From Flavobacterium sp. M31R6 (GTDB lineage: Bacteria > Bacteroidota > Bacteroidia > Flavobacteriales > Flavobacteriaceae): a stretch of DNA of 64,000 bases. Positions within the stretch are counted from its first letter, which is position 1; every line of letters starts with the position of its first letter. Shown in pieces: positions 7,971 to 56,418 of the stretch. The notes under the pieces were generated by a model. The model ran no database searches. It saw only the letters and a program-made list of their open reading frames with translations, and was not told where the DNA came from. Position numbers and translations under genes: made by a program. The stretch is taken from NCBI RefSeq assembly GCF_013284035.1, contig NZ_CP054141.1, positions 3,410,001-3,474,000 of the forward strand, in the 5' to 3' direction.

Positions 7971-8852
7971 CTAAATGGCTAAAATTTGGAGCATCCTGCC
8001 AACCTCAATATCCATTCTCGAAAATGCAAACCATTTTTTACCCAGATCTTTTAATGATGCTCCTATGTGGTAGAGTTCAGTATTATCAATTATGAGAAAA
8101 CGGTCATGGACATCCGAAAAAACCTCAACTTCAATCAGGGGATATTGACTGTTATATCGTTGCACATCTAGCCGTAACTGATTACTTATGCTTTTAGTAT
8201 AGATTGTTGCGGTAACATCACTATTTCTCTTACCCAACAAGGTTAGCACAGTATCGTCTACATAATTATCAATAAGGATAATGGAACTTTGGGCACTGCG
8301 GATAATATCGGAAACAAAAGCATAGGCATCAAAAATTTGCCCATTATAGAAAATGCCCTTTTCACTGTACAACTTTCCGCTTTCCAGTGCCTTAAAGATT
8401 TCTTCAAATTTCTGGTCTGCATCTATCTGTTTCAGTTCAATCTTATCCAGTCGATGAAACAAGGCTGCGTTATTAACAAGTATCTTGCGCATTTCCACAA
8501 AGGCATTCATTATCTCGATGCTTACTTTTATGGCAATATTGCTACGGAGTACAGCTGAAAGCATCGCAATTCCTTGTTCGGAAAAAACATAAGGCAGATA
8601 ACGTCTTCCCCCGTAATTCAAACTTGAGGTCACAAATTGTGACCTCAAGTTAATTGCATCAAATTCATCCTGTGTCAATTGAAAACAAAAGGATTCAGGA
8701 AAGCGGTCTGTATTACGCTTTACAGTCTGATTAAAGACTTTGGTTTCTACCTGATAAATCCTTGCGAGATCACTGTCGAGCATAACCTGTTGTCCTCTTA
8801 TAGTATAAATGCGGTTCTCAATTTCCGGACGGGTAATGATAGAATCACTCAT
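7971..8852 (-). CDS. ORF6N (KilA-N related) protein with PLD-like C-terminus
   Basis: The first ~100 residues are an ORF6N domain, recognised by the start IITRPEIENRIYTIRG and by VFNQTVKRNTDRFPESFCF. This DNA-binding fold is found in phage and mobile-element regulators. The C-terminal half contains HDRFLIIDNTELYHIGASLK, which resembles a single phospholipase-D HxK-x4-D motif with Arg in place of Lys, so nuclease-like activity is possible but uncertain. The start codon shares one base with the topoisomerase stop (TAATG), showing translational coupling. The length of 293 residues is normal for ORF6N proteins in Bacteroidota ICEs. The role in excision is unknown. Confidence 0.82.
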   Translation of the reverse strand: MSDSIITRPEIENRIYTIRGQQVMLDSDLARIYQVETKVFNQTVKRNTDRFPESFCFQLTQDEFDAINLRSQFVTSSLNYGGRRYLPYVFSEQGIAMLSAVLRSNIAIKVSIEIMNAFVEMRKILVNNAALFHRLDKIELKQIDADQKFEEIFKALESGKLYSEKGIFYNGQIFDAYAFVSDIIRSAQSSIILIDNYVDDTVLTLLGKRNSDVTATIYTKSISNQLRLDVQRYNSQYPLIEVEVFSDVHDRFLIIDNTELYHIGASLKDLGKKWFAFSRMDIEVGRMLQILAI

Positions 8853-10939
8853 TATTTCTTCGGAAGTTTAGATTTTTCAAATTCAAAAGAGCTTTCGGCT
8901 TTCTCATTCAATACGATATAAGCATCGAATTTCTTTCCGGCTTTGCTTTTCATTCCTTTAATGAGAGTAGTTTTTCTTTTGTTAACAAGACTTTCTATAT
9001 CGGATATACTTATTTGCACACCACACACATTTCGGAATTGTACCCAATTGCAGGCCTCATCAGGACATTTAACAATTTTATCCCTAATAATCAGTTGCCT
9101 ATTTTTGCATTTGGGACAGTCAAGCATGGCTCGATTTTCTTGTGCGATGGGAGTTTGCAACAATTCATTAGTAATGGATCTAGCATAATTTTCCATTTCT
9201 TTTTGGAAAGCTTCCGCATTACTTTCGTTATTTTCTATTTTTTGTAAAGCTAGTTCCCACTCTGCGGTCATCGATACATCGGCTATTTTCTTGTCTTTGA
9301 TCAGTTCGTACACCTGCAATCCCTTTGCGGTAGGTATAAGGGCTTTCAATTCCCTTTGGATATAATTACGGGTAAACAAGGTTTCAATGATGGCAGCCCT
9401 AGTAGCGGGTGTACCTATACCTATGCTTTTTAATGCCTTACGCTCTTCCTCGTTCTCTATTTCCCTTCCGGCAGTTTCCATAGCTGATAAAAGTCCTGCT
9501 TCGGTATAAAGCACGGGTGGTCTGGTTTTCTTCTCCAAGACCAAGAAATGTTTGATATTGAGTTCATCATCTTTTTTCAGCTTAGGCAGTTCCTGCATTG
9601 GTTCAGCATCATCATCTGAAAAACTGCCTTTAATGGAACGCCAACCTGATTCCAATATCTTACAGCCTTTGAGGACAAAATCATAATGCAAAGCCTGTAA
9701 AGTAATATCGGTTATCTCTTTTATACAAGCTTGTGAAATGGCTTCCAGTAGTCGAAAGGCAATCATATTGTAAACAGCATTTTCCTTTGCTGATAATGCC
9801 GAAGGGATTTTGTCAGTAATGAGCAGACCATGATGATCGGTAACACGAAGGTCATTAACGATACGTTTATTAAAATGTCCCCATTTCACTTTGGTTACTG
9901 CTTGCTTGAAGGTTCCCATATCTTGTAAAGCCCTGATAAGATTAGGGATTTCTGCCCACATATCTTCTGGAATGTATTTACTTCCGGTACGCGGGTAAGT
10001 AATAAATTTCTTTTCATACAGACCTTGGGCTATGTTCAGGGTTTCTTCAGCGGTAAGGTTCAACTTAATATTAGCTTCTTTTTGTAAGCCTGTCAGGTCA
10101 AACAACAAAGGCGGTTGCTCCGACACATTTTTAGTTTCTACAGCGGTAACCGTAACTATATTACCATTTCTTTCGATGGACTTTAATGTAGCTTCCGTCT
10201 GCTTTTTATCTTCCCATTTGTTTTTGGAAAGACTTTTAAAGTCTGTGAACTCTTTTGTATGAGACAACTGTATCTGCCAGTATTGCTGTACCGAAAAATT
10301 TCTGTTTTCCAAATAACGCTTGCATATTAAAGCCAGTGTAGGCGTCTGCACTCTTCCGAGCGAATAAATACCATTGCCTGCAACAATGCTCAACGCCTGA
10401 GAAGCATTGATACCCACCAGCCAATCAGCACGGCTCCTACCCTGCGCCGCCTGATATAATCTATCAAAATCGCTACCAGGCTTTAGGTTGTCAAAACCCT
10501 TTTTGATTGCTTTTTCGGTAAGCGAACTGATCCAAAGGCGTTCAAATGGCTTATTACATTTCAGGTATTCATAGATGTAACGGAATATTAATTCACCCTC
10601 ACGTCCGGCATCGGTTGCTACGATAATCTTTTCACTACGGTCAATGAGCTGTTCTATTACTTTTAATTGCTTTAATGCTCCTACATCTAGTGTATAGCCT
10701 TTGTCTTTTTTGACTTTGCGAACAGTCAGTAAAAAAGGATTGGGCAGTATCGGCAAGGATGATCTCTGAAATCCAGAAATTCCGTAATCTTCCGGCATAC
10801 CCAATCCTACTAAATGTCCAAAAGCCCAGGTAACATAATAACCGTTACCTGTCAAGTAACCATCCTTCTTTTCGGTGGCTCCCAACAGGCCAGCTATTTC
10901 CTTGGCTACACTTGGTTTTTCTGCAATTACTATTTTCAT
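8852..10939 (-). CDS. topB: DNA topoisomerase III (type IA)
   Basis: This 695-residue enzyme relaxes or decatenates DNA by single-strand passage. The Toprim domain opens the protein (MKIVIAEKPSVAKEIAG) and includes ATDAGREGELI at 108-118. The catalytic tyrosine is Tyr315 in FITYPRTGS. The C-terminus has a four-Cys zinc ribbon (CPKC...CPDEAC) and then a module, IKGMKSKAGKKFDAYIVLN, that also occurs in the DUF3945 protein of the same operon. In CTnDOT the equivalent gene, exc, lies in the excision operon. It is followed by the ORF6N gene with a one-base overlap. The conserved residues suggest an active enzyme rather than a remnant. Confidence 0.93.
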   Translation of the reverse strand: MKIVIAEKPSVAKEIAGLLGATEKKDGYLTGNGYYVTWAFGHLVGLGMPEDYGISGFQRSSLPILPNPFLLTVRKVKKDKGYTLDVGALKQLKVIEQLIDRSEKIIVATDAGREGELIFRYIYEYLKCNKPFERLWISSLTEKAIKKGFDNLKPGSDFDRLYQAAQGRSRADWLVGINASQALSIVAGNGIYSLGRVQTPTLALICKRYLENRNFSVQQYWQIQLSHTKEFTDFKSLSKNKWEDKKQTEATLKSIERNGNIVTVTAVETKNVSEQPPLLFDLTGLQKEANIKLNLTAEETLNIAQGLYEKKFITYPRTGSKYIPEDMWAEIPNLIRALQDMGTFKQAVTKVKWGHFNKRIVNDLRVTDHHGLLITDKIPSALSAKENAVYNMIAFRLLEAISQACIKEITDITLQALHYDFVLKGCKILESGWRSIKGSFSDDDAEPMQELPKLKKDDELNIKHFLVLEKKTRPPVLYTEAGLLSAMETAGREIENEEERKALKSIGIGTPATRAAIIETLFTRNYIQRELKALIPTAKGLQVYELIKDKKIADVSMTAEWELALQKIENNESNAEAFQKEMENYARSITNELLQTPIAQENRAMLDCPKCKNRQLIIRDKIVKCPDEACNWVQFRNVCGVQISISDIESLVNKRKTTLIKGMKSKAGKKFDAYIVLNEKAESSFEFEKSKLPKK

Positions 10940-11000: not shown

Positions 11001-11444
11001 CTATATTTTTCTACCACTTGATTTCATTGGTGTCTGTAGCTTTTCCTGTTCAGACAGCAATTGCTTTTGCAATTGTTCTGACTGTAACTCATATTTCTTC
11101 AACAATAATCCACCTTCCTTGTAAGGATTATTGATAATAATTTGAATTTCCTTTGCTAATTCAACTGCTTTTGATTCTGGCACAATGAAAAGTTTATAAC
11201 GAGTTGGATTATGTATATTTGCAAAAAAATCCATAAGAAAGTAGAGAAGAAAATTATCATTCTTATCAAATCTTTTAAACTCTCTATGATTTTCCTTTTT
11301 TACTTCTGCCGTTTCATATTCATCATATTTTCCAACTCCCTTCATTCCGTATACTATCTTATCTACTTTATCCATATCTACTAATAATAGTAGATTAGAG
11401 ATTTTTTCCACAGATTGTTGTCCATCTATTATTAGTTTACTCAT
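11001..11444 (-). CDS. Small paralogue of the upstream DUF4099/DUF3945 protein
   Basis: This 147-residue soluble protein starts at an ATG (MSKLIIDGQ); a TTG two codons earlier is less likely. Its N-terminal ~100 residues match the N-terminal domain of the 483-residue protein encoded just upstream: a leucine-rich start, then EFKRFDKNDNFLLYFLMDFFANIHNPT against FMRVDKQGDFFSNFF and FFSQLKNPTNFTFF. Both proteins also end in the same basic tail, KSSGRKI here and KSKGRKM there. The central DUF4099 and DUF3945 modules are missing. It looks like a capped-down duplicate that keeps both ends, perhaps a partner or modulator of the larger protein. Function unknown. Confidence 0.75.
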   Translation of the reverse strand: MSKLIIDGQQSVEKISNLLLLVDMDKVDKIVYGMKGVGKYDEYETAEVKKENHREFKRFDKNDNFLLYFLMDFFANIHNPTRYKLFIVPESKAVELAKEIQIIINNPYKEGGLLLKKYELQSEQLQKQLLSEQEKLQTPMKSSGRKI

Positions 11445-11512
11445 AATCAATGCTTTTTAAGTTTATTAAGTAAGGCGGTCCAGAGTTTTTCGCAACGAAT
11501 GTATTTAGGTGA

Positions 11513-12964
11513 TTACATTTTACGCCCTTTGGATTTGGCAGGTGCTTGAGCTGCTTCCTGTTGTTCCTGTTGTTTTTTGTTGTCCGGATTTGTTTGCCCA
11601 GATTTTAAAGGCTCTTTAAGATTCTTGGTCGATTCATTGGTTTTACCATCAGAATTGACCGCCGTCTGCGTTTTATAAGCTTCAGCAGGTTTTCCCTGTT
11701 CTTTGATTTTGTTCGGGTTTTGGAAAGAGAAATCTATTTTATTGGTTTCCTTGTTAAAGGTGATGTAACCATTATATTCCTTACCTTTCTTATCTACCAA
11801 TCCGCTGACATAAACAGTCTGTCCGTCTTTAAATTTCTGATATTGCTCCTTATCCAACTCTTTGTCCCTAAAGGTTTTCGGAGCTTCCTGCGATTGGGCT
11901 TGCTGATTACCTTGCATCTGCTTATTGGAGTTACCCCTGTCAAACAGGAACTCTACAAAACGCTTATCGGCATTAAATTGTACGGTTGCATCAAACGCAG
12001 TTCCTTTTTTGGAAGTCATTCCTTCGATATAAAGTGGCTTACCCTCCATTAGGGTTTGTTTTTGTACATCATCTAGTTTCACGCCTTTAATCTCATCAGA
12101 GATCTTGATTTTATCTGTTCGCAGTGCAACAAGCTCATTGGTAAGCCTGTCCACGCTGACAATGGATGGAATGCTCTCATTCGTTTTTGGATTGGTCAGA
12201 TTGACCACACGGCCCATATTCCCTGTCTGGAGCAGGTTCTCTTTATCTTCCTTAGTGAACTCGTGACCGAAAAAAGGAAAATTCAGGTTAGGTTCTTTGC
12301 GGATACCATGAATGGCAACCACAACCGCCCCTTCATCATTTTGTTGCAGAGACAGCCGTGCATCCATACGGGTAACGGCAGTGCCGAGATTAAGGCTTAC
12401 TGGTACAAGCTCATTGGTTTTAAAACCTCTCAATAAAGGATCAAGGAGGTTCATCTTTTCGAGTTTTTCTTTACTCAGTCCGAGATTGTTCATTGTTTCC
12501 CAGTCAATCTGTTCTGGTTTGTAGCGGTATTCACTTGTCTCTGATGTTGTCTGTGTTGTTTCCATACTATTTTTATTTTCTTGTTTATTATTTTGAACTA
12601 GTTCCGTTTTCACTTCGTGTTGCTTCATTAGTTGTTCTCCTTCAGGTGTTGGATAATCTACCTGTTTTTGCATTTCTTTTGCCATATTAATAGCCAATGG
12701 TGCAGGAACTTTGAAGAATGTGAAATTGGTAGGATTCTTCAATTGGCTGAAAAAATTAGAGAAGAAATTGGAAAAGAAATCACCCTGCTTATCAACCCGC
12801 ATAAACTGGTTCTGGTTCTTCTTTGTAGGGTCAACGGTTTCCAGCTTGCCATTTTCATCAATACCCTTTACAGCCTGAATTTTCTTTTTCTCTTTATCCA
12901 GCACCAATAATATCTCAGATAATTGTTCGGAAGTTTTTGGTTTATCTAAATTTTGTTCGCTCAT
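11513..12964 (-). CDS. DUF4099/DUF3945 domain protein of ICE excision operon
   Basis: The ATG at 12964 (MSEQNLDKPKTSEQ) is chosen over upstream non-ATG starts, giving 483 residues. After an N-terminal domain shared with the small downstream paralogue comes a DUF4099 region (YRPEQIDWETMNNLGLSKE) and then at least two DUF3945-type modules with the pattern YIEGMTSKKGTAFDATVQFN and YVSGLVDKKGKEYNGYITFN. The C-terminal ~60 residues are Gln-, Lys- and Asn-rich and end in KSKGRKM. The protein is soluble and of unknown function. It is ubiquitous in Bacteroidota conjugative elements between the xis-like gene and the topoisomerase, and it shares the DUF3945-like module with the topoisomerase C-terminus, suggesting that the two bind the same partner or DNA. 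Confidence 0.83.
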   Translation of the reverse strand: MSEQNLDKPKTSEQLSEILLVLDKEKKKIQAVKGIDENGKLETVDPTKKNQNQFMRVDKQGDFFSNFFSNFFSQLKNPTNFTFFKVPAPLAINMAKEMQKQVDYPTPEGEQLMKQHEVKTELVQNNKQENKNSMETTQTTSETSEYRYKPEQIDWETMNNLGLSKEKLEKMNLLDPLLRGFKTNELVPVSLNLGTAVTRMDARLSLQQNDEGAVVVAIHGIRKEPNLNFPFFGHEFTKEDKENLLQTGNMGRVVNLTNPKTNESIPSIVSVDRLTNELVALRTDKIKISDEIKGVKLDDVQKQTLMEGKPLYIEGMTSKKGTAFDATVQFNADKRFVEFLFDRGNSNKQMQGNQQAQSQEAPKTFRDKELDKEQYQKFKDGQTVYVSGLVDKKGKEYNGYITFNKETNKIDFSFQNPNKIKEQGKPAEAYKTQTAVNSDGKTNESTKNLKEPLKSGQTNPDNKKQQEQQEAAQAPAKSKGRKM

Positions 12965-13047
12965 AATTTGAATTTTTTTAATTTGATATCGAAAGTAAAA
13001 GAGGCTTCTACTGTTTTGTACTAATTGCCATTTATTGGCATTATTTG

Positions 13048-13356
13048 TCACCCGTTGACTTTTACTTTGGGCATGGAGGCGGTAAAGCTTTCTCTGATGA
13101 ATTGGTGCACATCTGAGAGCTTATAATAAATTTTTCCACTAATTGTATAATAGGGCAACTTGCCAGAAGAGCGGTAACGCTGAAGTGATCGTGCACTTAT
13201 CTTCAGCATCTGCAAAATATCCTGATTGTCCAGTAACTCTTCTCCATCAATAATAGCACTTTGATTTTTAGCCCCGTTTACCATTTCCATAAGGATGTCG
13301 AACCTCTCGATTATTCGCTCCATCCAAGCCATAAATTCTATTCTGTCAACATTCAT
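13048..13356 (-). CDS. Xis-like helix-turn-helix protein
   Basis: This 102-residue protein has an HTH_17/MerR-like DNA-binding domain in its second half: DNQDILQMLKISARSLQRYR is the helix-turn-helix, followed by a wing ending SGKIYYKLSDVHQFI. An ATG start (MNVDRIEF) is preferred to a TTG two codons upstream. It is the first gene of the excision operon, and its position and size match Xis2c/Xis2d of CTnDOT, small HTH proteins that direct integrase to excise the element. The region just upstream carries two ~88-bp repeats that probably contain its regulatory sites. Confidence 0.82.
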   Translation of the reverse strand: MNVDRIEFMAWMERIIERFDILMEMVNGAKNQSAIIDGEELLDNQDILQMLKISARSLQRYRSSGKLPYYTISGKIYYKLSDVHQFIRESFTASMPKVKVNG

Positions 13357-13448
13357 AATCAAAAATTTAGGTTCAATACGCAGTATGTAGCAATTCTTCC
13401 AGATAGAGGTACTATTTAATATGCTTTTACAAAATTCAGTTGCTTTTT

Positions 13449-13690
13449 TTGGATTTTATCACAATGGCTTTCGTAGTACTGAAAAAATTTAACATTTAAA
13501 ATTCTTCAAGCCTTGGTTTTACAGGGGAATTATTCTCTAAAAATGAATGCGCTTATGATTTCTGTTTTAGGTTGATACTCATTAGCCTATTTAGCGGCAA
13601 TTATTGGATTTTATCCCAATAGCCTTCGTAGTACGAAAAAAATTAACATTTAAAATCTGCAAAAACCTTAATTTTATGGGGAATTATTCT
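13449..13690. repeat. Pair of ~88-bp direct repeats in xis/rteC intergenic region
   Basis: Two imperfect copies lie at 13449-13537 and 13604-13690, offset by 155 bp. Both begin TTGGATTTTATC, share TTCGTAGTAC and AACATTTAAAAT, and end near GGGGAATTATTCT. They fill most of the ~350-bp non-coding gap between the rteC terminator and the first gene of the excision operon. In CTnDOT, RteC binds inverted half-sites upstream of xis2c, so these repeats are good candidates for RteC or Xis binding sites. A duplicated promoter is the alternative. Confidence 0.7.
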
Positions 13691-13706: not shown

Positions 13707-13748
13707 TAAAAAAAGCAGTATATCCTTTTAAATCAGGATTTACTGCTT
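13707..13748 (-). terminator. Rho-independent terminator of rteC
   Basis: AAGCAGTATATCCT pairs with AGGATTTACTGCTT (one mismatch) around an 8-base loop. On the minus strand the stem is followed by a run of at least seven T, directly downstream of the rteC stop. It should separate rteC from the excision operon. Confidence 0.85.
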
Positions 13749-13770
13749 GTATATTTTCGTAGTTACGACT

Positions 13771-14604
13771 TTACTCTTGATCTTCTCTAGACATTTTTTG
13801 TTGTAAGTTTAGCGTTAATTCTTCCAAAAATTTTGTCTTGCTACTTTTACGGGCTTTGATTTCGGTATAGGTTTTATAGATATTATCTAATTTGATATTG
13901 AAGAAATCTTCAAAGGATGCTGTTATCGTATTAATGTCTGCAGCACCATGATTGATTGTACCATTAGAAAACAATGCATAAATCAATTCTGTTAAAGCTG
14001 TTTTTGGTCCTGTCCATACCAATACTTTGTGTTTTTTTTCTTCAAATATTTCGGAATCATCGACTTTTAGTCTTTTTAGTGCTTGTCGGATATAATGAAT
14101 GAATCGATACATCGCTTTTACTTTTGCCCAAAGCATGTCTTGCGATGTTGAAAATTCAGGAAATTGGTAATAATCAGTCATGGGTGTAAAAGGAAAATTA
14201 TCCCTATGATTCCTAGTAAAGAATTGATGGTCTAGGTAACAGTATCCTTGTTCCATATAATGCACAAAATCGGCATTTCTGTAAAAGAATTTATTGATTT
14301 TTCGCAATTCTTTTTGGAAGAATTGAACTTTATAGGTGTTACCCGCTTTAGGCATTCTTAGTTCACAGGAACGTACTTCTGTAAAATAAATCAATAAGCT
14401 CATAGGGACAGGTTTAATGTTTTTGAAAAAATCAATCTCCTCCGGAACGGTGTTGAAATCATTTTTATCCACTATCTCTTTTAAGTTCGTTAATGTTTTA
14501 TTACACAATACAATTCCATTGCAAGCCTTATTTTGCATCGTTTCGTTTGCATCTAAAATTTCATTGCAGACAGCATTAAATGATTCAATTGCTTTTTCAA
14601 ACAT
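13771..14604 (-). CDS. rteC: RteC family regulator of ICE excision
   Basis: This 277-residue protein matches the RteC domain throughout, with the characteristic segment YLDHQFFTRNHRDNFPF and a Lys-rich C-terminus. In CTnDOT, RteC is a DNA-binding activator that turns on the xis operon after tetracycline induction through RteA/RteB. No tetQ or rteAB genes are visible here. Instead the gene starts 32 bp after the stop of an oxoamine-synthase/GNAT gene on the same strand, so the two are probably co-transcribed. It points toward the xis-like operon across the ~88-bp repeats and ends at a strong terminator. Excision is therefore probably under a different input from CTnDOT; that last step is inference. 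Confidence 0.88.
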   Translation of the reverse strand: MFEKAIESFNAVCNEILDANETMQNKACNGIVLCNKTLTNLKEIVDKNDFNTVPEEIDFFKNIKPVPMSLLIYFTEVRSCELRMPKAGNTYKVQFFQKELRKINKFFYRNADFVHYMEQGYCYLDHQFFTRNHRDNFPFTPMTDYYQFPEFSTSQDMLWAKVKAMYRFIHYIRQALKRLKVDDSEIFEEKKHKVLVWTGPKTALTELIYALFSNGTINHGAADINTITASFEDFFNIKLDNIYKTYTEIKARKSSKTKFLEELTLNLQQKMSREDQE

Positions 14605-14636
14605 CTTTTTTAATATTAGTTGTCAATATGCTTTCG

Positions 14637-17066
14637 TCATTTTGCAATTGATTTGTAATCATTTTGCAAAGTATTCATAAGTTCCATTGCGTAATTGTCT
14701 CTTGCCTGAACATAGGCTATTTTTGGAATTACTCTAGCACCTAATTTTCTTTTTTCAAAAGAAGCGGACACTCCAAAATCTATTTTTTGAAACTCTAATG
14801 CATTAGCTCTTTTTATAGTTTGAAATAATAATTGCCTGTAGAGTTGGTATTCTTTTGCCCATTTGTAATCCATTCCTATTAATTCTGGGACATAGGTGTG
14901 ATTGCTGTTTTTGTAGCAAAACATAACACCTGCAAATGGATTTTCGGTATCAGCTTTCAATGTTAACACTATGAACTCCCAGTTGGGGCTTTCATTCATG
15001 TTTTCGAAAACTTCTTGAGAATATCGAAATGTATTGATAGCGTAATTATTGTCTTTTACATTGTTGTAGAGTTGATATGCTCTTGCTATTTCTGATTTGC
15101 TTAATTGATTTTTTATTGCTACACCATAGCACTTTTCGTAAGGTTCTATCTCTTTATAAAAATGTTTACGGGAACGAATAGATAATGACTCTGCAAACTC
15201 TTCATTTGTATGCCAACCTTGGTTTTCAATCACACAGGATTCCGGCATGTCTATTCTAAAATATGCTTGGTCAACTATTGTTTTGTTATAGCTATTGTCT
15301 TTTTCAAAATCTCTTAAAACCAACATATCAGCATTTAAGGCATTGTATTTTTCTTCTATATTGTCTAATAAAAGTTTTACTGCTTTCTCCGCTAAAGGAT
15401 GTTCCTGATTGATAAAGCAGTGTTTACCTTCAGTAAATAAAGATCCCATACTCAAAACTTTTGAGGTTAGATATAAAGGATTGGTTTTTCTTATTTCTTC
15501 CAAATGAATAGAGACAGATTCGGTAGCGAGCATATCGTCTTTCCAAAGTCCGTACGTAAAAAAGGTCATAAGTATTATGTTGCCTTCATTGTCTTTAATA
15601 GCATAATAATAAAAATCCCATTGGTTTGTTGGGTCAGGATGCTGGCTGAATGTATTCTCTAAATAAACCATTCCTTCCCAATCAAAAATATTTTGCTTAC
15701 CCATGTATTGATTCCACTCTAATTTCTCAATGTCTTGAATGGTGCTTTTTTCTTCAATAATAAGTTCCTGTTGTTTTAATTCTGAAATCTTTTGAATCCT
15801 TCCAATGCCTAATCCAAAAGCCTGTCTTATTTTGTTTTCACTGTTGTTTGTTTCTTCCAACGCTTTAGGGAAATGATATTCCAACGCTTCGGCCAAGGCT
15901 GTAATATCTTGTTGCTGATTGTGACTAGATAATGTAATTCTAATCCCGGTATTCTTTATTGGTACAGCAGGATAAATTCCCAAATTCAGAAAAAATCCTT
16001 CCTTGAATAAACGTTTCGAAAAATTATAGGCCGTTGCAGGCGTCCCCATTCCCAAAAAGAAAACTGGCGAATCGTTTTTTGAGATTATTGGAAGGTTTCC
16101 TAAAGACAACAATTGATTGAAGTGAGCAATTTTATCTGCCAAATCTTTTTGTTTCAATTCTATTTCAGGAGATAAATGGATTTCTGCTGAAGCTATTGCA
16201 GCCGCTACAGATGCAGGTTCTAACTGAGCGGAAAAGGTTAACGGTCCGCCGAAATTTTTAATTTTTTCCCGCAGTTTTTGGTTCTTGCAAAATAATGTTG
16301 CGCCACTGGCTCCAAATGTTTTGCTTAGTGTACTCACTACAATGCAATTTTCAGGTAGTTCTTTGATCGCGTCAAAAACAAAACCAGTTCCATTTTTGCC
16401 TTTCCAACTCATTCCATGGACATCATCAAAATAAAGGTTTAGCTGTGCATACTTTTGGGTTAAAGCCAATAATTCCGGGATATGTGCATAATCCCCAAAC
16501 ATGGAATATACACCATCAGCCATATACCAGATTTTGTTGCACTTGGTACTTAGTTGTTTTATTTTATCTTCCAACATATCCAAATTGCTGTGTCTGATCA
16601 TTTCTACCGGAATTCCTCGCAGTTTTAAAAGTTGACAAGCATTTTGCACACTCCAGTGGACCTGGTGATCTATTATTACTGCATCCTCATCTCTAATGAG
16701 CGTTGGGATAATAGCTAAATGCCCCAATGTACTATTCTTGGTTATAATAGGTGGTATACCATACATTTGTTCGATTTTACTTTCCAATTCACTATATAAT
16801 GGATGTGAAATATATGATTTTGAAAGGGGAAATTGCGTACCATAATTACGTATGGCTTGAATAGCAGCTTCTTTAAGTCTGTCGTCCTGTTCTAAACCCA
16901 GATAACCAGTAGTTCCGAAATGAAACATTTCCTTTCCCTTGATTTGGATTGTCCTGCCCGTTAAAATCTTGTCTTCTGCATATAAGTGCAGTATGCCTTC
17001 TTTCTTTGCTTCCGAAAAAACTTCATCCACAGTATCGATAAAGTTATTGTGTCTAATTTTTGCCAT
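14637..17066 (-). CDS. PLP-dependent alpha-oxoamine synthase fused to GNAT acyltransferase
   Basis: Residues 1 to about 405 form a fold-type I PLP enzyme of the alpha-oxoamine synthase group (BioF, KBL, serine palmitoyltransferase, CqsA). FDDVHGMSW at 213-221 supplies the cofactor-binding Asp and His, and the Schiff-base lysine is Lys249 in STLSKTFGASGA. Residues from about 415 to 809 resemble a GNAT-type acyltransferase region. Oxoamine synthases condense an amino acid with an acyl-CoA; CqsA and LqsA of this group make autoinducers, others make biotin or sphingoid bases. The substrate cannot be read here. It is divergent from the DUF7793/AraC genes across a 218-bp region with phased repeats, and rteC follows it by 32 bp. 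There is no signal peptide or membrane segment. Confidence 0.85.
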   Translation of the reverse strand: MAKIRHNNFIDTVDEVFSEAKKEGILHLYAEDKILTGRTIQIKGKEMFHFGTTGYLGLEQDDRLKEAAIQAIRNYGTQFPLSKSYISHPLYSELESKIEQMYGIPPIITKNSTLGHLAIIPTLIRDEDAVIIDHQVHWSVQNACQLLKLRGIPVEMIRHSNLDMLEDKIKQLSTKCNKIWYMADGVYSMFGDYAHIPELLALTQKYAQLNLYFDDVHGMSWKGKNGTGFVFDAIKELPENCIVVSTLSKTFGASGATLFCKNQKLREKIKNFGGPLTFSAQLEPASVAAAIASAEIHLSPEIELKQKDLADKIAHFNQLLSLGNLPIISKNDSPVFFLGMGTPATAYNFSKRLFKEGFFLNLGIYPAVPIKNTGIRITLSSHNQQQDITALAEALEYHFPKALEETNNSENKIRQAFGLGIGRIQKISELKQQELIIEEKSTIQDIEKLEWNQYMGKQNIFDWEGMVYLENTFSQHPDPTNQWDFYYYAIKDNEGNIILMTFFTYGLWKDDMLATESVSIHLEEIRKTNPLYLTSKVLSMGSLFTEGKHCFINQEHPLAEKAVKLLLDNIEEKYNALNADMLVLRDFEKDNSYNKTIVDQAYFRIDMPESCVIENQGWHTNEEFAESLSIRSRKHFYKEIEPYEKCYGVAIKNQLSKSEIARAYQLYNNVKDNNYAINTFRYSQEVFENMNESPNWEFIVLTLKADTENPFAGVMFCYKNSNHTYVPELIGMDYKWAKEYQLYRQLLFQTIKRANALEFQKIDFGVSASFEKRKLGARVIPKIAYVQARDNYAMELMNTLQNDYKSIAK

Positions 17067-17150
17067 TGGTTACTTATTTTTGGTGTTTTTTAAAATAGAG
17101 TCATAAATTTCATAAAAAAAATGAAAGTTATTTCAACTACTTCTTCAATA

Positions 17151-17227
17151 CTCCCAAATTGACAAGTCAAATTCCCGAATTAACAACAAATACTGCAAAA
17201 AGCAACAAATATTCCCAAATTAACAAG
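17151..17227. promoter_or_regulatory. Phased direct-repeat operator candidate
   Basis: Three direct repeats occur in the divergent promoter region: CTCCCAAATTGACAAG (17151-17166), TTCCCGAATTAACAAC (17172-17187) and TTCCCAAATTAACAAG (17212-17227). The first two are offset by exactly 21 bp, two helical turns, and the third by 40 bp. The third ends in the palindrome AACAAGCGCTTGTT. Tandem sites in helical register are the normal arrangement for AraC-family proteins, and an AraC gene lies just downstream. The same repeat recurs at 18639-18675. Confidence 0.65.
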
Positions 17228-17284
17228 CGCTTGTTAATAAATGTTTATATTTTTGTTAAATTATAAAACTTTAATTCATAGAAC

Positions 17285-17668
17285 ATGATTGCAGCCCATG
17301 ATCTTTATGAGAATGATTTTGCGCGGTTTTGGATAACCGATGGTATTCTTTTTTTTGAATATAAACCCAATACTATTATTGATCTTAAGGTAGCCCAATG
17401 TGTTGTAACTGATAGAATTCATTTTCAAAACGAAAAATCTTATCCTATTCTGTGTGATATTCGTGGTATTGTTGCCACCGAGAAATCAGGTAGAGATTAT
17501 TTGGCACAATCTGGGTCTATATTGACACAAGCCGTTGGTCTTATTGTGCACGAGAAAGTATTGTTGACGATAAGCACTTTTTATGTACAGATTAGTAAAC
17601 CTTCTGTACCTACTCAAATTTTCACTAAAGAAGAAGATGCTTTAGTTTACCTGAAAGGGTTTATTTAG
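17285..17668 (+). CDS. DUF7793-like (STAS-like) protein
   Basis: This 127-residue soluble protein starts with IAAHDLYENDFARFWITDGILFFEY in outline and matches my memory of DUF7793, a small alpha/beta family related in shape to SpoIIAA/STAS domains. The central segment YPILCDIRGIVATEKSGRDYL is the most conserved-looking part. No catalytic residues or membrane segments are seen. It is the first gene after the phased-repeat region and precedes the PAS-AraC gene by 32 bp, so it probably belongs to a regulatory operon and may act as a sensor or anti-regulator. Function unknown. Confidence 0.72.
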   Translation: MIAAHDLYENDFARFWITDGILFFEYKPNTIIDLKVAQCVVTDRIHFQNEKSYPILCDIRGIVATEKSGRDYLAQSGSILTQAVGLIVHEKVLLTISTFYVQISKPSVPTQIFTKEEDALVYLKGFI

Positions 17669-17700
17669 TTTTTAGAAAGAAAAATTAAGAGTTGAATTTT

Positions 17701-18618
17701 ATGAAAGCGTACAATAAAGAACGTATTGTAACCATTCATCAAATGCTATTTGAGATGGCACGTGGCAATTTTAACAGTCGCATTCCCTTAAGTTCCAATG
17801 ATGAAGAATTGGAAACGCTTGTTGTTTTAATTAATATGGTTGCGGAAGAAATGAAAGAGTCGATTTTTAATGTCGGCTATGTTAATGCCCATAGAAAACT
17901 TCAATTTATAGCTCAAAGTACACTTGTTTTGGACACCTCTTTTTCTATCAAAAGCTTTACTCCTGAAATTGCTTATTTTTTAGGTTATTCGGAATCTGAA
18001 TTGATAGACCTGCCTTTGGCGGGCATTATTACTCCAGCTTCTTTGCAACAACTTCATGATGTACTCGATGTAAATGTTTCATCGCCTACAACTATTGCTT
18101 TAGATTTTACACCTAATGAACATTTGCCTGTTTCTGTTTCCTGTACTATTGGAAGGTTAGTTATTAGTTCGGAAATTATATTAAATTTTGTTACTCCTGC
18201 CCGTAAAGATTCTTATCGTCCTTTGATGTACGAAAATGAAAACGAGAAACATAATAAAACTCGAAAGGAAGACGCACTCTTGATTCAAAAACTTTATGAC
18301 TATATATTGGCACACCTTGAAGAACCGCTTCCATCGCTAAAAGTGCTTTCATCTGAATTTGGTACTAATGAACATAAATTAAAAGATGGCTTTCGTCATT
18401 TTTTCAAGACCAGTATTTACCAGTTTTATAATGATGAGCGTTTGAAAAGAGCTTATTTTATGATTGAACACACTACGATACCTTTGAAAAATATATCGGT
18501 GATGAATGGCTTTAACGATTATCCCAATTTTTCAAAATCCTTTAAAAAACGATTTGGTTTTTCTCCATATGAAATAAAGCGAAATGAAACCGGTTCTACT
18601 TCTATAGTGGAAGATTAA
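17701..18618 (+). CDS. PAS-containing AraC family transcriptional regulator
   Basis: This 305-residue protein is taken from the ATG at 17701; an in-frame TTG three codons earlier is less likely. Residues ~10-55 look like a soluble HAMP-type helical pair (GNFNSRIPLSSNDEELE). Residues ~75-165 form a PAS-like domain (IAYFLGYSESELIDLPLAGI). The last ~100 residues are an AraC double helix-turn-helix, with LKDGFRHFFKTSIYQFYNDERLKRAYFMIE in outline and ending GFNDYPNFSKSFKKRFGFSP. It likely senses a cytoplasmic signal and binds the 21-bp-phased repeats found both upstream of its own operon and between it and the MauE-like gene. Autoregulation plus control of the MauE/DUF6520 genes is inferred from these sites. 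Confidence 0.85.
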   Translation: MKAYNKERIVTIHQMLFEMARGNFNSRIPLSSNDEELETLVVLINMVAEEMKESIFNVGYVNAHRKLQFIAQSTLVLDTSFSIKSFTPEIAYFLGYSESELIDLPLAGIITPASLQQLHDVLDVNVSSPTTIALDFTPNEHLPVSVSCTIGRLVISSEIILNFVTPARKDSYRPLMYENENEKHNKTRKEDALLIQKLYDYILAHLEEPLPSLKVLSSEFGTNEHKLKDGFRHFFKTSIYQFYNDERLKRAYFMIEHTTIPLKNISVMNGFNDYPNFSKSFKKRFGFSPYEIKRNETGSTSIVED

Positions 18619-18638
18619 ATTTTAGCTTTTCAAACCTT

Positions 18639-18675
18639 ATCCGTTTTGGACAAGTTTTGCTCCCAATAAGACAAG
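18639..18675. promoter_or_regulatory. Second phased direct-repeat operator candidate
   Basis: Between the AraC stop and the MauE-like start, TATCCGTTTTGGACAAG and GCTCCCAATAAGACAAG occur with their ACAAG ends exactly 21 bp apart (18650-18654 and 18671-18675). The second copy matches CTCCCAAATTGACAAG at 17151 in 13 of 16 positions. Same sequence and same helical spacing at two promoters of one locus points to a shared regulator, most simply the adjacent AraC protein. Confidence 0.6.
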
Positions 18676-18730
18676 TGTTTTGGCTTTTGAATTCAGAATT
18701 TTGCTTTGTAGAACTAAAATCTATGAAGCT

Positions 18731-20209
18731 ATGAGATTTAATATCAAAATACAGAACTTGTTTTTAGAGTTTACTTGTTTGCTCTATATTATACTTTTTG
18801 TCTATGCAGCAGTCAGTAAACTATTGGATTTTGAAAACTTTCAGGCTCAGTTGGGACAGTCTCCCCTTTTAAGTCCCTTTGCAGATTTTGTGTCTATTAC
18901 AGTAATTGTTCTGGAACTGATTATTGCAGTTCTACTGAGTGTCCCTAGATTTAGATATATTGCTTTATGGGCAGCAGTTGCCTTGATGAGTATGTTTACT
19001 GCTTATATAGTTATCATACTGCACTTCAGTTATTTTATTCCCTGTTCATGCGGTGGTATTTTGGAAAAGTTAGGATGGAAAGAACATCTTATTTTTAATC
19101 TGGCATTCCTGTTTTTGGCAATATTCGCCATTTTATTGCGATCCATGAATAACCGCATTCTGATTCGACTATCCTTATTAGTTTTAGGAAGTGTTTTGGT
19201 CATTACAGGATTATTTCTTTTCTCGGAAGACATCATGCAAAAGGAAAACCCTTTTATTAGACGCTTTCCACAAGCGACAGCGGCCAAAGTAGGCAGCATT
19301 GATTTAAGAAATACATCTTATTATGTTGCTGGTACTAATAAAAATAAAATTTATTTAGCCAATCGTTTGGCTCCGCTTCAAATTCTTGAAATTGATTCCA
19401 ATCTAAAAAGCAAAAAGAAATACACCATCCAATTGGACCGTGAGAATTTTAATTTTAAGGCAGTCGAGATTCGGATTAACGCTCCATATTTCTATGTAAT
19501 TGATGGGACGGTTCCTGTCATTTACAGAGGTTTGATTTCTGATTGGAAAGCCAAAGTAATGATGGAAAAACAATTCTATTTTTCAGATATAGTCTTTATC
19601 AATGATAAGCAGCTGGCTTTTAGAACCCAAAAACCTCCAACAGGAGAAAATATTCTGGGGATTGCCAACAACTATGAGAATCCAAAAATCAAATACAATC
19701 CACAGGTGTTGCAAAAACAGATGGAAGGAATTTTTGACACCGATGGTACACTACAATATAGCGCCACATTGCATAAACTGATTTACACTTACTACTATCG
19801 CAACCAATATATTATTACAAAGGAAAACCTAACCGTTGAGCATCGTGCCAATACCATTGACACTACTACTAAAGCAAAATTGGAAGTGGTAAAAATAAAA
19901 CAATCCGGGGACATAAAATTAGCAGCACCACCGTATATGGTTAATCGTCACACAACAGTACGGGGTAACTTACTTTTCGTTAATTCCCTGTTACGAGGCA
20001 AATATGAAGAGATTGATGTGTGGAAGTATGCTTCTGTAGTTGACGTTTATGATTTGTCAAAACAGACTTATCTTTTGAGTTTTTACGTGTATGATGAAGA
20101 AGCGGGGCGAATGAAAAACTTTTTCGCTGGCGATTCAGCGATGTATATCCTCTCGGGACATTATATGCTCAAATACGGATATGGGAAAAGAATCCAATCC
20201 AAAATTTAG
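18731..20209 (+). CDS. MauE/DoxX-like redox membrane protein with periplasmic domain
   Basis: Starting at the ATG at 18731 (MRFNIKIQNLF), this 492-residue protein has four hydrophobic segments in its first ~135 residues. It also carries the MauE-type thiol motif CSCGG at 105-109, next to the third segment. MauE/DoxX proteins shuttle disulfide electrons in the membrane. A fifth segment near residue 150-165 leads to a ~320-residue region without Cys-rich motifs that may fold as a periplasmic beta-propeller-like domain. The gene follows the phased repeats and precedes the four-Cys DUF6520 peptide gene by ~106 bp, which suggests that it forms or reduces disulfides in that peptide. That partnership is inferred. 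Confidence 0.78.
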   Translation: MRFNIKIQNLFLEFTCLLYIILFVYAAVSKLLDFENFQAQLGQSPLLSPFADFVSITVIVLELIIAVLLSVPRFRYIALWAAVALMSMFTAYIVIILHFSYFIPCSCGGILEKLGWKEHLIFNLAFLFLAIFAILLRSMNNRILIRLSLLVLGSVLVITGLFLFSEDIMQKENPFIRRFPQATAAKVGSIDLRNTSYYVAGTNKNKIYLANRLAPLQILEIDSNLKSKKKYTIQLDRENFNFKAVEIRINAPYFYVIDGTVPVIYRGLISDWKAKVMMEKQFYFSDIVFINDKQLAFRTQKPPTGENILGIANNYENPKIKYNPQVLQKQMEGIFDTDGTLQYSATLHKLIYTYYYRNQYIITKENLTVEHRANTIDTTTKAKLEVVKIKQSGDIKLAAPPYMVNRHTTVRGNLLFVNSLLRGKYEEIDVWKYASVVDVYDLSKQTYLLSFYVYDEEAGRMKNFFAGDSAMYILSGHYMLKYGYGKRIQSKI

Positions 20210-20315
20210 TACAGTATATGAATATTATTGAAAGATACCGGCCGGTAGCAGGAGTAACGATCGAAAACCTGTAGAAAAGAGTAGATCAAATTCTATTAAT
20301 TTAAATTTAAATATT

Positions 20316-20582
20316 ATGAAAACAACCATTTTAAGAGCGTTTGTACTGCCTATAGCAGCATTTGCTCTGGCTAGTGCCGGTGCAGTAAGTACTAACACTT
20401 CAGAAGTAAGTAAAGCCGATGTATTGATTCCGGCTTTTATTCACAATCCATCAGTGAACGACTGTCAGGAAGTTCCTGATGTTAACTGTGCTCCAGGTAA
20501 TGGTCCTGCCTGTCTCAGCGGTGGTAATATCGCCTATGGTGGCAGTAAAACTTCTTGTAACCAACAATTGCACCGCAATTAG
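20316..20582 (+). CDS. DUF6520-like secreted four-cysteine peptide
   Basis: This 88-residue precursor has a signal-like N-terminus: a basic start (MKTTILRAF), a hydrophobic core to about residue 22, and a small-residue region (ASAGAVS). The mature part holds four cysteines at 50, 58, 66 and 81 with many Gly, Pro and Asn, and ends in a short basic tail. Size and layout match the flavobacterial DUF6520 family of unknown function. It lies just behind the MauE/DoxX-type gene and converges on the S9 peptidase-SusD-SusC operon across a shared terminator. Two disulfides are possible. It could be a signal, a bacteriocin-like peptide or a surface component; the sequence does not decide. Confidence 0.78.
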   Translation: MKTTILRAFVLPIAAFALASAGAVSTNTSEVSKADVLIPAFIHNPSVNDCQEVPDVNCAPGNGPACLSGGNIAYGGSKTSCNQQLHRN

Positions 20583-20605
20583 TAAAATCATTTTTCAATG
20601 AAGAT

Positions 20606-20641
20606 AATGCAGTTTTTTTGAAAAACTGCATTATTTTTTTA
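20606..20641. terminator. Bidirectional terminator
   Basis: AATGCAGTTTTT and AAAAACTGCATT form a perfect 12-bp stem with a 3-base loop, followed by ATTTTTTT on the plus strand. A-rich bases on the other side give a weaker T-run on the minus strand. It ends the DUF6520 transcript and probably also that of the convergent S9 peptidase operon. Confidence 0.88.
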
Positions 20642-20651
20642 TGTTTATTCC

Positions 20652-23303
20652 CTATTCCGTTTCTTTTGATACTGCTTTAAATTCAGCTTCCCCTTTCAGC
20701 CAATAATCAAACCATTCCATCATTCGCTGACTGAGATTCTTCTGGTTTTTTGGATTCTCTAGCGAATGGTCTTCGTCAGGATAAACAAGCATCTGGGTTG
20801 AAACTCCCAATTTTCGAAGTGCCAAATAGTAGGTAATACTCTGATTCCAAGGAACGATTCTGTCGTTTTTTCCGGTCCACAGCAGCAGCGGCGTTCTCAC
20901 ATTTTCCGCATGCATAATGGGAGAGTTATTAACGTATACTTCTTTATCATCGTACAGTGATTTTCCAATACGAAACTGCTGGTTTTCAAATCGCCACATA
21001 TCTGATTGAAAATAGCCATTCCTGCTGATATTAAAATAAAGGGATATGATGTCACTTATGCCAGCGCCGGAAACAGCGGCCGCAAAAATAGGAGTTTGCG
21101 ATATGATGAAATTGGTTTCATAGCCGCCAAAGGAATGGCCGTACAAACCGATCTTATCTTTATCCACCAGGCCTTTACCAATAACTGTATTGACTCCAGC
21201 TGTCACACAATCAACGGCCGAACTTCCGGGATTACCCATCTGGTAGATGATATCGGGCATCAATACAAAATAACCATTGAGCGCATAATTGGTGACATTA
21301 AAACCTTCGGGATTTAAAAACGAGGGGTTAGCATAGTTATACCTGTTTTTAGACATAACATCATAAATTTCCACCACCATTGGGTATTTTTTCGTAGGGT
21401 CATAATTGGCAGGATAGAACAGCGCCGCTTTTAGTTTTTGACCTTTACTATTGTAGTAATACAGTAATTCAGATTTTCCAAAAGAATACTCTTTTTGCTG
21501 TTTGTTGGACTGAAATAAAATTTTGGAAGCGGTCTGGTTTTTCCGTCTGAATTCCAATCGCGGCGACTGATTGAAAGTTTGAGTCTGGAAGATATAAGCA
21601 CTGTTTTTACTCTTACGGATTTCATCGATTTTACTGGCTTCATATACTATGGGTTGTTCTTTCGATTTATCATTGTAAATAAAATATCCCGTTGACCAGT
21701 TTTCACTATTGGTGGCTTCGAGCAGCAGGTCTTCGGATAGATCAAAAATGGTGGGGTTCCTTCCATCATAGTTACTCTGTGATCGCCAGTCATATTCAAT
21801 GGGAGTTATCCTGTAAACTAGGTTTTTCTCGTATCCTCTGGTTAATCGCTTACAAGAAGAACCATCGATAGCCACCAGCCAGATATCATTGGCATCATAC
21901 AATAAAACATTTTTTCCATCATTGGTCCAGCCCGGATTGCCATAGGCTCCAAATTGATGGGGAGCATCAGAAGTATTATAGTTGTCCCAGTGAGTTGTAA
22001 CTTTTTTAGTCAGGTTGGTATGTGTTTTTTCCACAGGATCATACATCCACCAATTACTTTCCCGATAATACAGTATTCTGTTGCTGAAAGGATCAAAGCC
22101 CATCTGGTTCAAATCAACGGATTGCTTTTTCAGTATCAGCTCTTTGGAACCATCCTTTAGATTGGTTAAATAAAAATCCGCTTCTTCATAATATTTCGAT
22201 TGCAGGCCATAGGAAAACTTATTGTATAAAACAGCATACTGCTGTTGTCCGCTCAGCATGATTGACGGTAGCTCGTCATCGCTGATCTGTAAACACAAAC
22301 CCGTTTCAGGATACCAGAGAGCTACTTTGGGAATATCGCCCTCAGTCTGCTGCCGTTGTCTGTCTGCATAAAGCCATTTGTCGTTGCCGTGCCAAATTTC
22401 AGGCACATCCGGCTTTTCTAAATTAGGATCCTTCTTTTTGGCTAACATAAAAAATACTTTTTTTCCATCGTCGGAAATGGCATATGTAGTCCTTTTAAAA
22501 ACTTCCATATTCTTTGAATCCGCTTTAGAGGCATAATCCAGTGAGAAGAGCTTTTTATCAGCAATTCTATAATAATTCACGGTAACTTCCTTAGTAGCTG
22601 AATCTGTCTCCCGTAAAAAAGCCACCGATTTAGAGTCCTTAGCCCACATCAAGTTAAAAAAGTGACTGCCGTTTACTTTTGAAACAGCAGTATGTGAATA
22701 GAGGGTAAAATGAATAATCCCTATCTCGCTATAATCCTTTTGACTCGAAGCATACACAATCGCATCCTTATCTGCATTTAACACATATTCAGAGATACCG
22801 TCAATACTGTCAATCACCTTACCATTTGGGTTGCGGATCTGCATCAGGCATTTTTCACCGTAACCTTTATTCAGGGTGATTATATATTGGCCATCCTTTG
22901 CCAGCTCATACCGCTTAACATTGTCATAAACCGCAATTTTGCCTGTGGGAAGCTCCATTACTTTTAGTTTTGAATCGGGAGCTAGAAAAGCAAAGAGTTG
23001 TTCCCCTCCAAAACGACCCTCATTTCCTTTTGGGAAAACATAGCTTTTATTTTTAGCGATGTTCTGCACAAATAAAGTATCACTGTGGTTTTCGTAACGC
23101 ATCGCATAACTTGCCCATTTCCCTTGGTCAGAAATGGCTTTTACTTCTAGTGTTCCCCATCTCTGGTAATCGTTCTCGGTTAATGCCTTCTTTTGTTGTA
23201 CCTGCCCCATACAGGGACAGGACAGTAACAAAAGAAGTGTAGCCAATACTAAACTCAAAATTTCGAAGTCAATTTTTTTTCTTATTATTAGTATTGCTTT
23301 CAT
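20652..23303 (-). CDS. S9 family (prolyl oligopeptidase-type) secreted peptidase
   Basis: This 883-residue protein begins with a signal-like hydrophobic stretch (~residues 14-33). It then has a long WD-like beta-propeller region to about residue 610 and a C-terminal alpha/beta-hydrolase domain. The catalytic triad reads Ser724 in GHSFGGY, Asp814 in WTGKNDRIVP and His846 in DEDHS. Such enzymes cleave oligopeptides, often after Pro or Ala, in the periplasm or at the cell surface. It is the last gene of a SusC-SusD-S9 operon (7-bp gap from susD), so it probably processes peptides imported by, or presented to, the SusCD transporter. The nearby four-Cys peptide is a possible substrate; that is inference. 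Confidence 0.88.
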   Translation of the reverse strand: MKAILIIRKKIDFEILSLVLATLLLLLSCPCMGQVQQKKALTENDYQRWGTLEVKAISDQGKWASYAMRYENHSDTLFVQNIAKNKSYVFPKGNEGRFGGEQLFAFLAPDSKLKVMELPTGKIAVYDNVKRYELAKDGQYIITLNKGYGEKCLMQIRNPNGKVIDSIDGISEYVLNADKDAIVYASSQKDYSEIGIIHFTLYSHTAVSKVNGSHFFNLMWAKDSKSVAFLRETDSATKEVTVNYYRIADKKLFSLDYASKADSKNMEVFKRTTYAISDDGKKVFFMLAKKKDPNLEKPDVPEIWHGNDKWLYADRQRQQTEGDIPKVALWYPETGLCLQISDDELPSIMLSGQQQYAVLYNKFSYGLQSKYYEEADFYLTNLKDGSKELILKKQSVDLNQMGFDPFSNRILYYRESNWWMYDPVEKTHTNLTKKVTTHWDNYNTSDAPHQFGAYGNPGWTNDGKNVLLYDANDIWLVAIDGSSCKRLTRGYEKNLVYRITPIEYDWRSQSNYDGRNPTIFDLSEDLLLEATNSENWSTGYFIYNDKSKEQPIVYEASKIDEIRKSKNSAYIFQTQTFNQSPRLEFRRKNQTASKILFQSNKQQKEYSFGKSELLYYYNSKGQKLKAALFYPANYDPTKKYPMVVEIYDVMSKNRYNYANPSFLNPEGFNVTNYALNGYFVLMPDIIYQMGNPGSSAVDCVTAGVNTVIGKGLVDKDKIGLYGHSFGGYETNFIISQTPIFAAAVSGAGISDIISLYFNISRNGYFQSDMWRFENQQFRIGKSLYDDKEVYVNNSPIMHAENVRTPLLLWTGKNDRIVPWNQSITYYLALRKLGVSTQMLVYPDEDHSLENPKNQKNLSQRMMEWFDYWLKGEAEFKAVSKETE

Positions 23304-23310
23304 AATGATT

Positions 23311-24729: not shown

Positions 24730-24746
24730 GGCTGTATGTATTAAGG

Positions 24747-40274: not shown

Positions 40275-40276
40275 CT

Positions 40277-56408: not shown

Positions 56409-56418
56409 TTTTTTGAAT

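Follow-up and report, generated by a model that had tools for sequence, protein, structure and literature searches.

A surface module beside rteC as a candidate input to excision control in CTnDOT-type elements of Flavobacteriaceae

Integrative and conjugative elements (ICEs) of the CTnDOT type move in Bacteroides upon sensing of tetracycline. Passages in two papers on CTnDOT present RteB as the activator of rteC and RteC as controlling the excision and transfer genes (PMC1976400, PMC10865816), and a passage in the first of them states that rteC expressed from a foreign promoter could control these genes in the absence of rteA and rteB (PMC1976400). Whatever drives rteC may therefore drive the element. 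To our knowledge, no trigger has been described for RteC elements devoid of rteAB. Here we analyzed a stretch of 64,000 nucleotides (nt) of Flavobacterium sp. M31R6 (contig NZ_CP054141.1, positions 3,410,001 to 3,474,000; hereafter the window), in which rteC follows a gene for a pyridoxal phosphate (PLP) enzyme of the alpha-oxoamine synthase fold fused to a GNAT domain (the synthase), next to a divergent set of regulatory and surface genes (the surface module). We lean, without strong preference, towards the reading that, on CTnDOT-type ICEs of Flavobacteriaceae, this module stands in for RteAB in providing the input to RteC, with the synthase-GNAT gene and rteC forming its output operon.

Features common to the locus and CTnDOT are a protein of the RteC family, genes for HTH_17 and topoisomerase past rteC, and Tra and Mob proteins that belong to shared Pfam families. 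Genes for a coupling protein, a relaxase, MobC, ParA, TraG, TraJ, TraM and DUF4138 lie 11-32 kb to the left of the window (Pfam matches at L041/L042: PF03432, YWFCY/T4SS-DNA_transf, P-loop_TraG, CtnDOT_TraJ, Transposon_TraM and DUF4138; loci carry L numbers and genomes G numbers throughout), which makes the window probably part of a CTnDOT-type ICE. For Phage_integrase, the closest match is located about 92 kb to the left of rteC. Unlike CTnDOT, with its tetQ-rteA-rteB genes, the window has no rteAB beside rteC, and its rteC is predicted to be the second gene of an operon divergent from DUF7793 and AraC genes. A preliminary description, made from the sequence of the window, had reported that tetQ and rteAB were not visible; no two-component gene was found among the genes of 14637-27776, every one of which was matched to Pfam (the peptide gene just under the cut-off), and tetQ was not searched by family.

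The rteC gene is the only PF09357 match in the genome. It begins 32 nt past the stop of the synthase-GNAT gene on the same strand, as first described (Table 1). The junction folds at the level of shuffled sequences (z -0.26), and a terminator at this place, named beforehand as the result that would speak against an operon, was rejected. The strong terminator announced after rteC agrees with a stretch that folds far more strongly than shuffles (z -4.56), with hairpin arms at 13713-13726 and 13735-13748 followed by a T run on the minus strand; a simple terminator pattern scan listed neither the junction nor this hairpin, which is supported by the inverted repeat and the folding score, not by the scan. 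An internal promoter within the 3' end of the synthase gene may provide an alternative start for rteC. What stands of the operon proposed earlier is a tight, co-directional and conserved couplet, from which joint transcription is predicted on sequence grounds.

Conservation of the couplet was assessed in 199 Flavobacteriaceae genomes. At a threshold of E 1e-60, 21 synthase genes (48-100% identity) were found in 20 genomes, and for 17 of the 21 an RteC gene lies downstream within 5 kb on the same strand (91 of 102 RteC rows were typed for this count, 11 fragment rows being omitted); the adjacency that the preliminary description had suggested looking for in other Bacteroidota elements was thus found. 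A search of genome contigs gave 33 synthase loci, 2 of them from Bacteroidetes metagenome-assembled genomes, and together with 20 further loci and the window these make up a junction survey of 54 loci. An RteC open reading frame (ORF) comes next on the same strand in 41 of the 54, with a gap of at most 60 nt in 28 of the 41. Among these 28 tight junctions, L001 and L002 read -26 from an upstream ATG and 31 nt from the aligned start, and the ORF of L007 is an rteC remnant with another rteC further on. Three loci stop at a contig edge (L029, L031, L032), and L033 has a broken synthase with RteC further on. With 17 of 21 sample genes paired and RteC next in 41 of 54 loci, the pairing as a local accident was rejected. 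Among 395 genomes sampled across the phylum, eight of the nine matches at E 1e-60 came from Flavobacteriaceae, and the ninth, from another family (41% identity; L164 in G233), is a synthase only, in a neighbourhood where no module genes were seen by eye. No match to the synthase was found in a plasmid collection at E 1e-40. In L004, L005 and L007, a short remnant of a window-type rteC follows the synthase ahead of an unrelated rteC. This remnant looks like the scar of an exchange, and for this reason rteC appears to have been swapped with its position kept.

The DUF7793, AraC, MauE and peptide genes of the module diverge from synthase-rteC, and the S9 peptidase, SusD and SusC genes face these four. 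RteC lies within 10 kb for 24 of the 40 best MauE rows; the count is 25 of 41 once the lower-scoring row of G100 is added by hand as part of a synthase module. Seventeen of these 25 are accompanied by the synthase and 8, all inspected, are not. In 7 of the 8, a module gene is directly opposite rteC: L166 and L167 have DUF7793, then AraC, directly divergent from rteC (which is broken in L167), and L128, L133, L142, L165 and L168 have a LytTR gene in this place, with a TPR histidine kinase gene coming next. Pfam confirmed a response regulator in L128, L133 and L165, the three that were scanned. In L140, kinase-like and regulator-like genes were recognized by eye, the nearest at 547 nt from rteC. 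It is thus the module, rather than the synthase, that appears to track rteC. The five LytTR loci look like a second form of the peptide module at rteC, one equipped with kinase and LytTR.

Table 1. Features of the window around rteC (positions within the window)
Feature	Position	Strand	Remarks
rteC	13771-14604	minus	277-residue ORF; Pfam RteC PF09357 209.2 bits, cut-off 25.3
Synthase-GNAT gene	14637-17066	minus	809-residue ORF; PLP alpha-oxoamine-synthase-fold enzyme fused to GNAT domain
Synthase-rteC junction	14605-14636	minus	32 nt, no hairpin
Terminator-like hairpin 3' of rteC	13713-13748	minus	Inverted repeat and fold
Divergent promoter region	17067-17284		Between DUF7793 and synthase
ATTCCCAAATTAACAA-like repeats	17150-17165, 17171-17186, 17211-17226		Candidate AraC operator
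Palindrome TCGTA-AC-TACGA	13757-13768		Just past rteC stop; candidate RteC operator
Palindrome TTCGTAGTACGAA	13625-13637		Candidate RteC operator
Imperfect copy, GTACTACGAA on minus strand	13470-13482		About 120 nt before HTH17; candidate RteC operator
DUF7793 protein	17285-17668	plus	First gene of divergent arm; Pfam DUF7793 152 bits
AraC-family regulator	17692-18618	plus	Pfam HTH_18; putative regulator of divergent promoter
MauE-type membrane protein with C-terminal extension	18680-20209	plus	Pfam MauE 108 bits
DUF6520-type precursor-like peptide	20316-20582	plus	88 residues; Pfam DUF6520 PF20130 21.9 bits
S9 prolyl-oligopeptidase-family peptidase	20652-23303	minus	Pfam Peptidase_S9
SusD lipoprotein partner	23311-24729	minus	Pfam SusD-like_3, SusD_RagB
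SusC/RagA TonB-linked outer membrane transporter	24747-27776	minus	Pfam Plug, CarbopepD_reg_2; TIGR04056 723 bits, cut-off 368
HTH_17 protein, excisionase-like position	13048-13362	minus	PF12728; first gene of presumed RteC-controlled operon
DUF4099/DUF3945 protein	11513-13051	minus	Pfam
DNA topoisomerase, Exc-like position	8852-10939	minus	Topoisom_bac 385 bits, Toprim

In the regions between the two divergent arms, a direct repeat recurs at a lag of 21 nt (z 11.1 over 27 regions against 40 shuffle sets); the next best of 52 lags, 40 nt, reaches z 4.8. A spacing of 21 nt suits sites of AraC-type regulators, and L166, devoid of the synthase, carries a perfect 11-mer repeat at the same lag between DUF7793 and rteC. 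From these repeats we infer that the AraC protein may bind at the 21-nt direct repeats.

On the other side of rteC, a palindrome was searched as GTA[CG]TACGAA or TTCGTA-n-TACGAA in the spacers between rteC and HTH17. It was present in 21 of 23 loci whose RteC is at least 47% identical to that of the window, and none of the 57 loci at 44% or less had it; this line was set after the result was seen, which weighs against our reading (L007 was omitted; up to 500 nt after rteC were used for L013, L020, L021 and five of the 57, which have no HTH17 call). The two misses are L013, which ends after 81 nt, and L025, which has a variant. When two substitutions were allowed, 56 sites were counted in 23 spacers of the window-type group (L166 included, L013 left out), compared to 8.65 in shuffles, and 24 sites in 58 other spacers. 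The first palindrome is present on both of the ICE cores that carry the module, and common descent of spacer and rteC among near relatives is a possible explanation of the tracking. Taken by itself, the window has two matches at a tolerance of two mismatches, a number reached by 29 of 100 shuffles; as this is often enough, the case for the palindrome is a comparative one. A different site, CCCAACTTGGG-like with at most two mismatches, occurs in 33 of 52 other spacers versus 1 of 20 in the window-type group, the motif being derived from an alignment of part of the same spacers and counted without a shuffle control. Where a promoter-like anchor, TTTG..CGAAAGT, was found, these sites often stand 46-49 nt before it; in L114, which belongs to the window-type group, the group's own motif stands 46 nt before the anchor. 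Two or more CCCAACTTGGG-type sites are present in 24 of 58 spacers, with a spacing of 125-128 nt in 22 of the 24. RteC binding is reportedly the subject of a paper by Park and Salyers (2011); the palindromes described here are defined by the comparison of spacers. Combined, these results make the palindrome a candidate RteC operator ahead of the HTH17-topoisomerase operon.

Paired CCCAACTTGGG-type sites were seen in L104-L110, L119, L120, L123, L124, L126, L128, L131, L133-L139 and L147, about 12 helical turns apart, one soon after rteC and the other nearer to the next gene, so that looping would be possible.

In thinned sets of 120 and 45 pairs, identities of the synthase and RteC correlate at 0.93 and 0.80, respectively. 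Correlations with the synthase are 0.90 and 0.85 for DUF7793 and 0.85 and 0.76 for AraC, compared to 0.63 and -0.18 for MauE and 0.62 and 0.38 for SusD. Over long distances, AraC, DUF7793, the synthase and RteC thus appear to travel together. Near relatives were defined as 94 pairs from 21 Flavobacterium loci with a synthase identity of at least 84%. Median identities in this set are 89 for the synthase, 77 for DUF7793, 69 for AraC, 56 for SusD (81 pairs), 48 for MauE and 37 for S9; for the peptide they are 58 over the first 26 residues and 31 over the rest. SusD, S9 and MauE are mutually correlated at 0.83-0.88 and at about 0 with the synthase, and the mature peptide correlates at 0.45-0.49 with S9, MauE and SusD; the pairs of identities are not independent of one another. 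The whole far side of the divergent promoter seems to have been exchanged among these near relatives, a pattern that resembles signal polymorphisms.

One explanation of this pattern is that a DUF6520-type peptide would be exported, oxidised with the aid of MauE, trimmed by the peptidase, imported by SusCD and sensed through AraC/DUF7793 or through kinase and LytTR, so that rteC and excision would answer to the density or kind of neighbours. A similar peptide gene is found at the same place in 48 of 52 loci (the other 4 have no MauE or SusD call), the genes that would handle the peptide are those that diverge together, and in the second form of the module a peptide of this kind is accompanied by kinase and LytTR. 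The window peptide has a signal-peptide-like start, as judged by eye, and 4 Cys after it; its score is just under the PF20130 gathering cut-off of 25.4, which is passed by relatives in L166 (50.3 bits) and L165 (32.7 bits). Against this explanation, the correlation of the mature peptide with its neighbours is only partial, some modules have 2-Cys peptides or a different gene in place of the S9 peptidase, no paper naming DUF6520 was found in the literature search, and a signal role for this type of peptide is a proposal. Furthermore, nutrient cassettes could be exchanged in the same pattern. We regard peptide sensing as possible yet, on balance, unlikely. SusCD and S9 peptidases are usually uptake machinery, and modules also occur away from RteC, as would be expected if SusCD and the peptidase import a peptide or a cofactor and AraC reports nutrition, tying mobility to it. 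The dedicated small peptide gene in nearly all loci argues against such nutrient gating, which we hold to be doubtful.

Conjugation in Firmicutes is known to be under the control of peptide pheromones, as in ICEBs1 (RapI-PhrI) and pCF10. In the module, too, a gene for a small secreted-looking peptide accompanies the regulators of a mobile element, and the kinase and LytTR of one version can be likened to that control; it differs, as far as genes alone tell, in having SusCD instead of the importers of those systems, AraC/DUF7793 in the window version and RteC as the output. TonB receptors accompany lasso peptide isopeptidase loci. Such loci in Proteobacteria are the subject of passages in one paper (PMC13352647). 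The module has the same neighbours, an S9-family peptidase and a TonB-dependent receptor beside a peptide gene; in contrast to these loci, no lasso synthetase is present among its genes, and its S9 peptidase, for which the lasso peptide isopeptidase model NF033523 is the best NCBIfam match, scores 117.8 bits, far under the cut-off of 400.

The preliminary description had raised the possibility that the product of the synthase is a signal, the enzyme belonging to the fold group of the autoinducer synthases CqsA and LqsA. The N-terminal half matches Aminotran_1_2 (residues 47-394, 85 bits), and TLSK and DDVHG, to which catalytic roles are ascribed, are invariant across an alignment of 15 relatives. 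The fold group thus stands, as for CqsA and LqsA a PLP alpha-oxoamine synthase fold; membership in their family was rejected, with 76 bits for the LqsA-type model NF005526 compared to a cut-off of 428. The synthase further departs from these enzymes by its fused second half, which ends in a GNAT domain (Acetyltransf_6/GNAT, residues 632-773, 30 bits); an AlphaFold2 model relating to this half has a mean pLDDT of 67.9, and a PDB sequence search with residues 430-809 gave no match up to E 1. Every NCBIfam model listed scores under its cut-off. The best is PRK07505, an unnamed subfamily (272 bits, cut-off 342); the equivalog models for BioF (176 bits, cut-off 426), serine palmitoyltransferase (152, cut-off 500) and glycine C-acetyltransferase (142, cut-off 460) outscore the LqsA-type model. 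Hence a diffusible alpha-oxoamine made by the synthase and driving rteC, for which the fold, the LqsA-type score and a weak similarity to CAI-1 synthase chains (45 bits) would speak, is in our view improbable, as these other models score higher and 8 copies of the module stand beside rteC without a synthase; the proposed role as signal maker loses ground on the same evidence. No cognate autoinducer receptor was found in Pfam scans of the neighbouring genes, to which the search was confined. The synthase appears to be a frequent yet dispensable part of the module and may produce or alter a small molecule on which the module draws. Better candidates for the sensor are AraC, DUF7793, the small peptide, SusCD and the peptidase; for the cue, the peptide is our favourite and the product of the synthase comes second.

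Several results weigh against the module as the input to RteC. Firstly, nine of the 54 synthase loci have no RteC next (L015, L016, L022, L023, L024, L097, L098, L100, L111) and the junction exceeds 150 nt in five. Secondly, in a non-random control of 40 out of 74 typed RteC rows not beside a synthase (mostly top scores, some rows at contig edges skipped), the first gene upstream shares the strand of rteC in 36 of 40 and ends no more than 60 nt away in 9 of 40. These genes, named by eye, are UvrA-like, metal-efflux-like, LacI-like, integrase-like and others, and in L155, one of the 36, a synthase fragment. The place before rteC is therefore a general cargo slot and tight co-direction alone proves little; that same-strand cargo before rteC is the rule is the strongest of these points. 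A module MauE lies upstream in precisely those four controls whose neighbour is on the opposite strand (L128, L133, L140, L142). Thirdly, for 16 of the 41 module-type MauE genes there is no RteC within 10 kb. Fourthly, in single divergent regions the direct repeat is weak: in only 10 of 30 regions is it matched by no more than 2 of 100 shuffles, while 17 of 100 equal it in the window, and CCCAACTTGGG-like sites are absent from 19 of the 52 other spacers. Finally, among near relatives, AraC correlates at -0.07 and DUF7793 at 0.09 with the synthase, which argues against one regulatory core, and at 0.78-0.80 and 0.57-0.67, respectively, with SusD and MauE. That AraC and DUF7793 vary with the SusD/MauE block makes the module somewhat less likely as the input and cargo somewhat more so.

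The main rival is accordingly that the module is ordinary accessory cargo that happens to stand before rteC, which would have its own promoter or receive accidental read-through, with no control of mobility. Diverse cargo abutting rteC in other elements and modules away from RteC fit this explanation; the module genes directly opposite rteC in nearly all synthase-less copies, the 21-nt repeat directly before rteC in L166, and the recurrence of the module on two ICE cores with several RteC groups do not. We consider cargo a real possibility, though not the probable one. In L120, L124, L125, L127 and L147, unrelated cargo on the strand of rteC stops 11-29 nt short of it, as if read-through from any upstream cargo operon could reach rteC.

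Other features of the window were noted. The minus-strand genes after rteC encode, in order, HTH_17, DUF4099/DUF3945, a 149-residue protein, topoisomerase, ORF6N, DUF1896 and an N6-methylase/helicase. The 149-residue protein (11001-11450) resembles the N-terminal part of the adjoining DUF4099 protein (33-39% where measured in relatives), a partial duplication. Between SusC and metal genes, ORFs of 478 and 424 residues on the plus strand (28784-30220 and 30426-31700) have no Pfam match at E 0.001. Metal-efflux-like cargo occupies 35347-41524 and 50176-60741, with two P-type ATPases, three HlyD/CusB-type adaptors and a 1440-residue protein in which an AcrB-type pump is fused to an outer membrane efflux domain.

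With the module as the input to RteC, the circuit would probably run as follows. The surface genes would read a cue, linked either to SusCD import and the small secreted-looking peptide or to the metabolic state, and pass it on to AraC/DUF7793. AraC, with DUF7793, would bind the direct repeats and turn on the divergent promoter, activating synthase-rteC, and the synthase and RteC would be made together. RteC would then bind its own palindromes and switch on the HTH17-DUF4099-topoisomerase (excision) operon. What the comparison of loci shows is a conserved operon layout, 21-nt direct repeats and palindromes that track the RteC type. The possible new control circuit for ICE mobility suggested by the preliminary description is strengthened as a prediction, but its centre now lies in the module and rteC, no longer in the synthase.

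No paper on this arrangement of rteC and module was found in a literature search whose coverage mostly excludes subscription journals; rteC beside a surface module instead of a tetracycline sensor suggests an undescribed way of timing the movement of an element. The arrangement offers a candidate circuit that is conserved and open to testing, complete with a peptide gene and proposed operators, and the motif that tracks the RteC type could help to locate RteC targets in other elements. A more speculative view, to which we give little credence at present, is that, in a family of Bacteroidota ICEs, a secreted peptide that is polymorphic, contains Cys and has a SusCD importer and a peptidase of its own serves as a cue of self/non-self or density, read by interchangeable regulators (AraC-DUF7793 with the synthase, or kinase-LytTR) that fire rteC and hence excision. 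If true, this would be a peptide-pheromone conjugation circuit outside Firmicutes, with pherotype-like swapping of cassettes.

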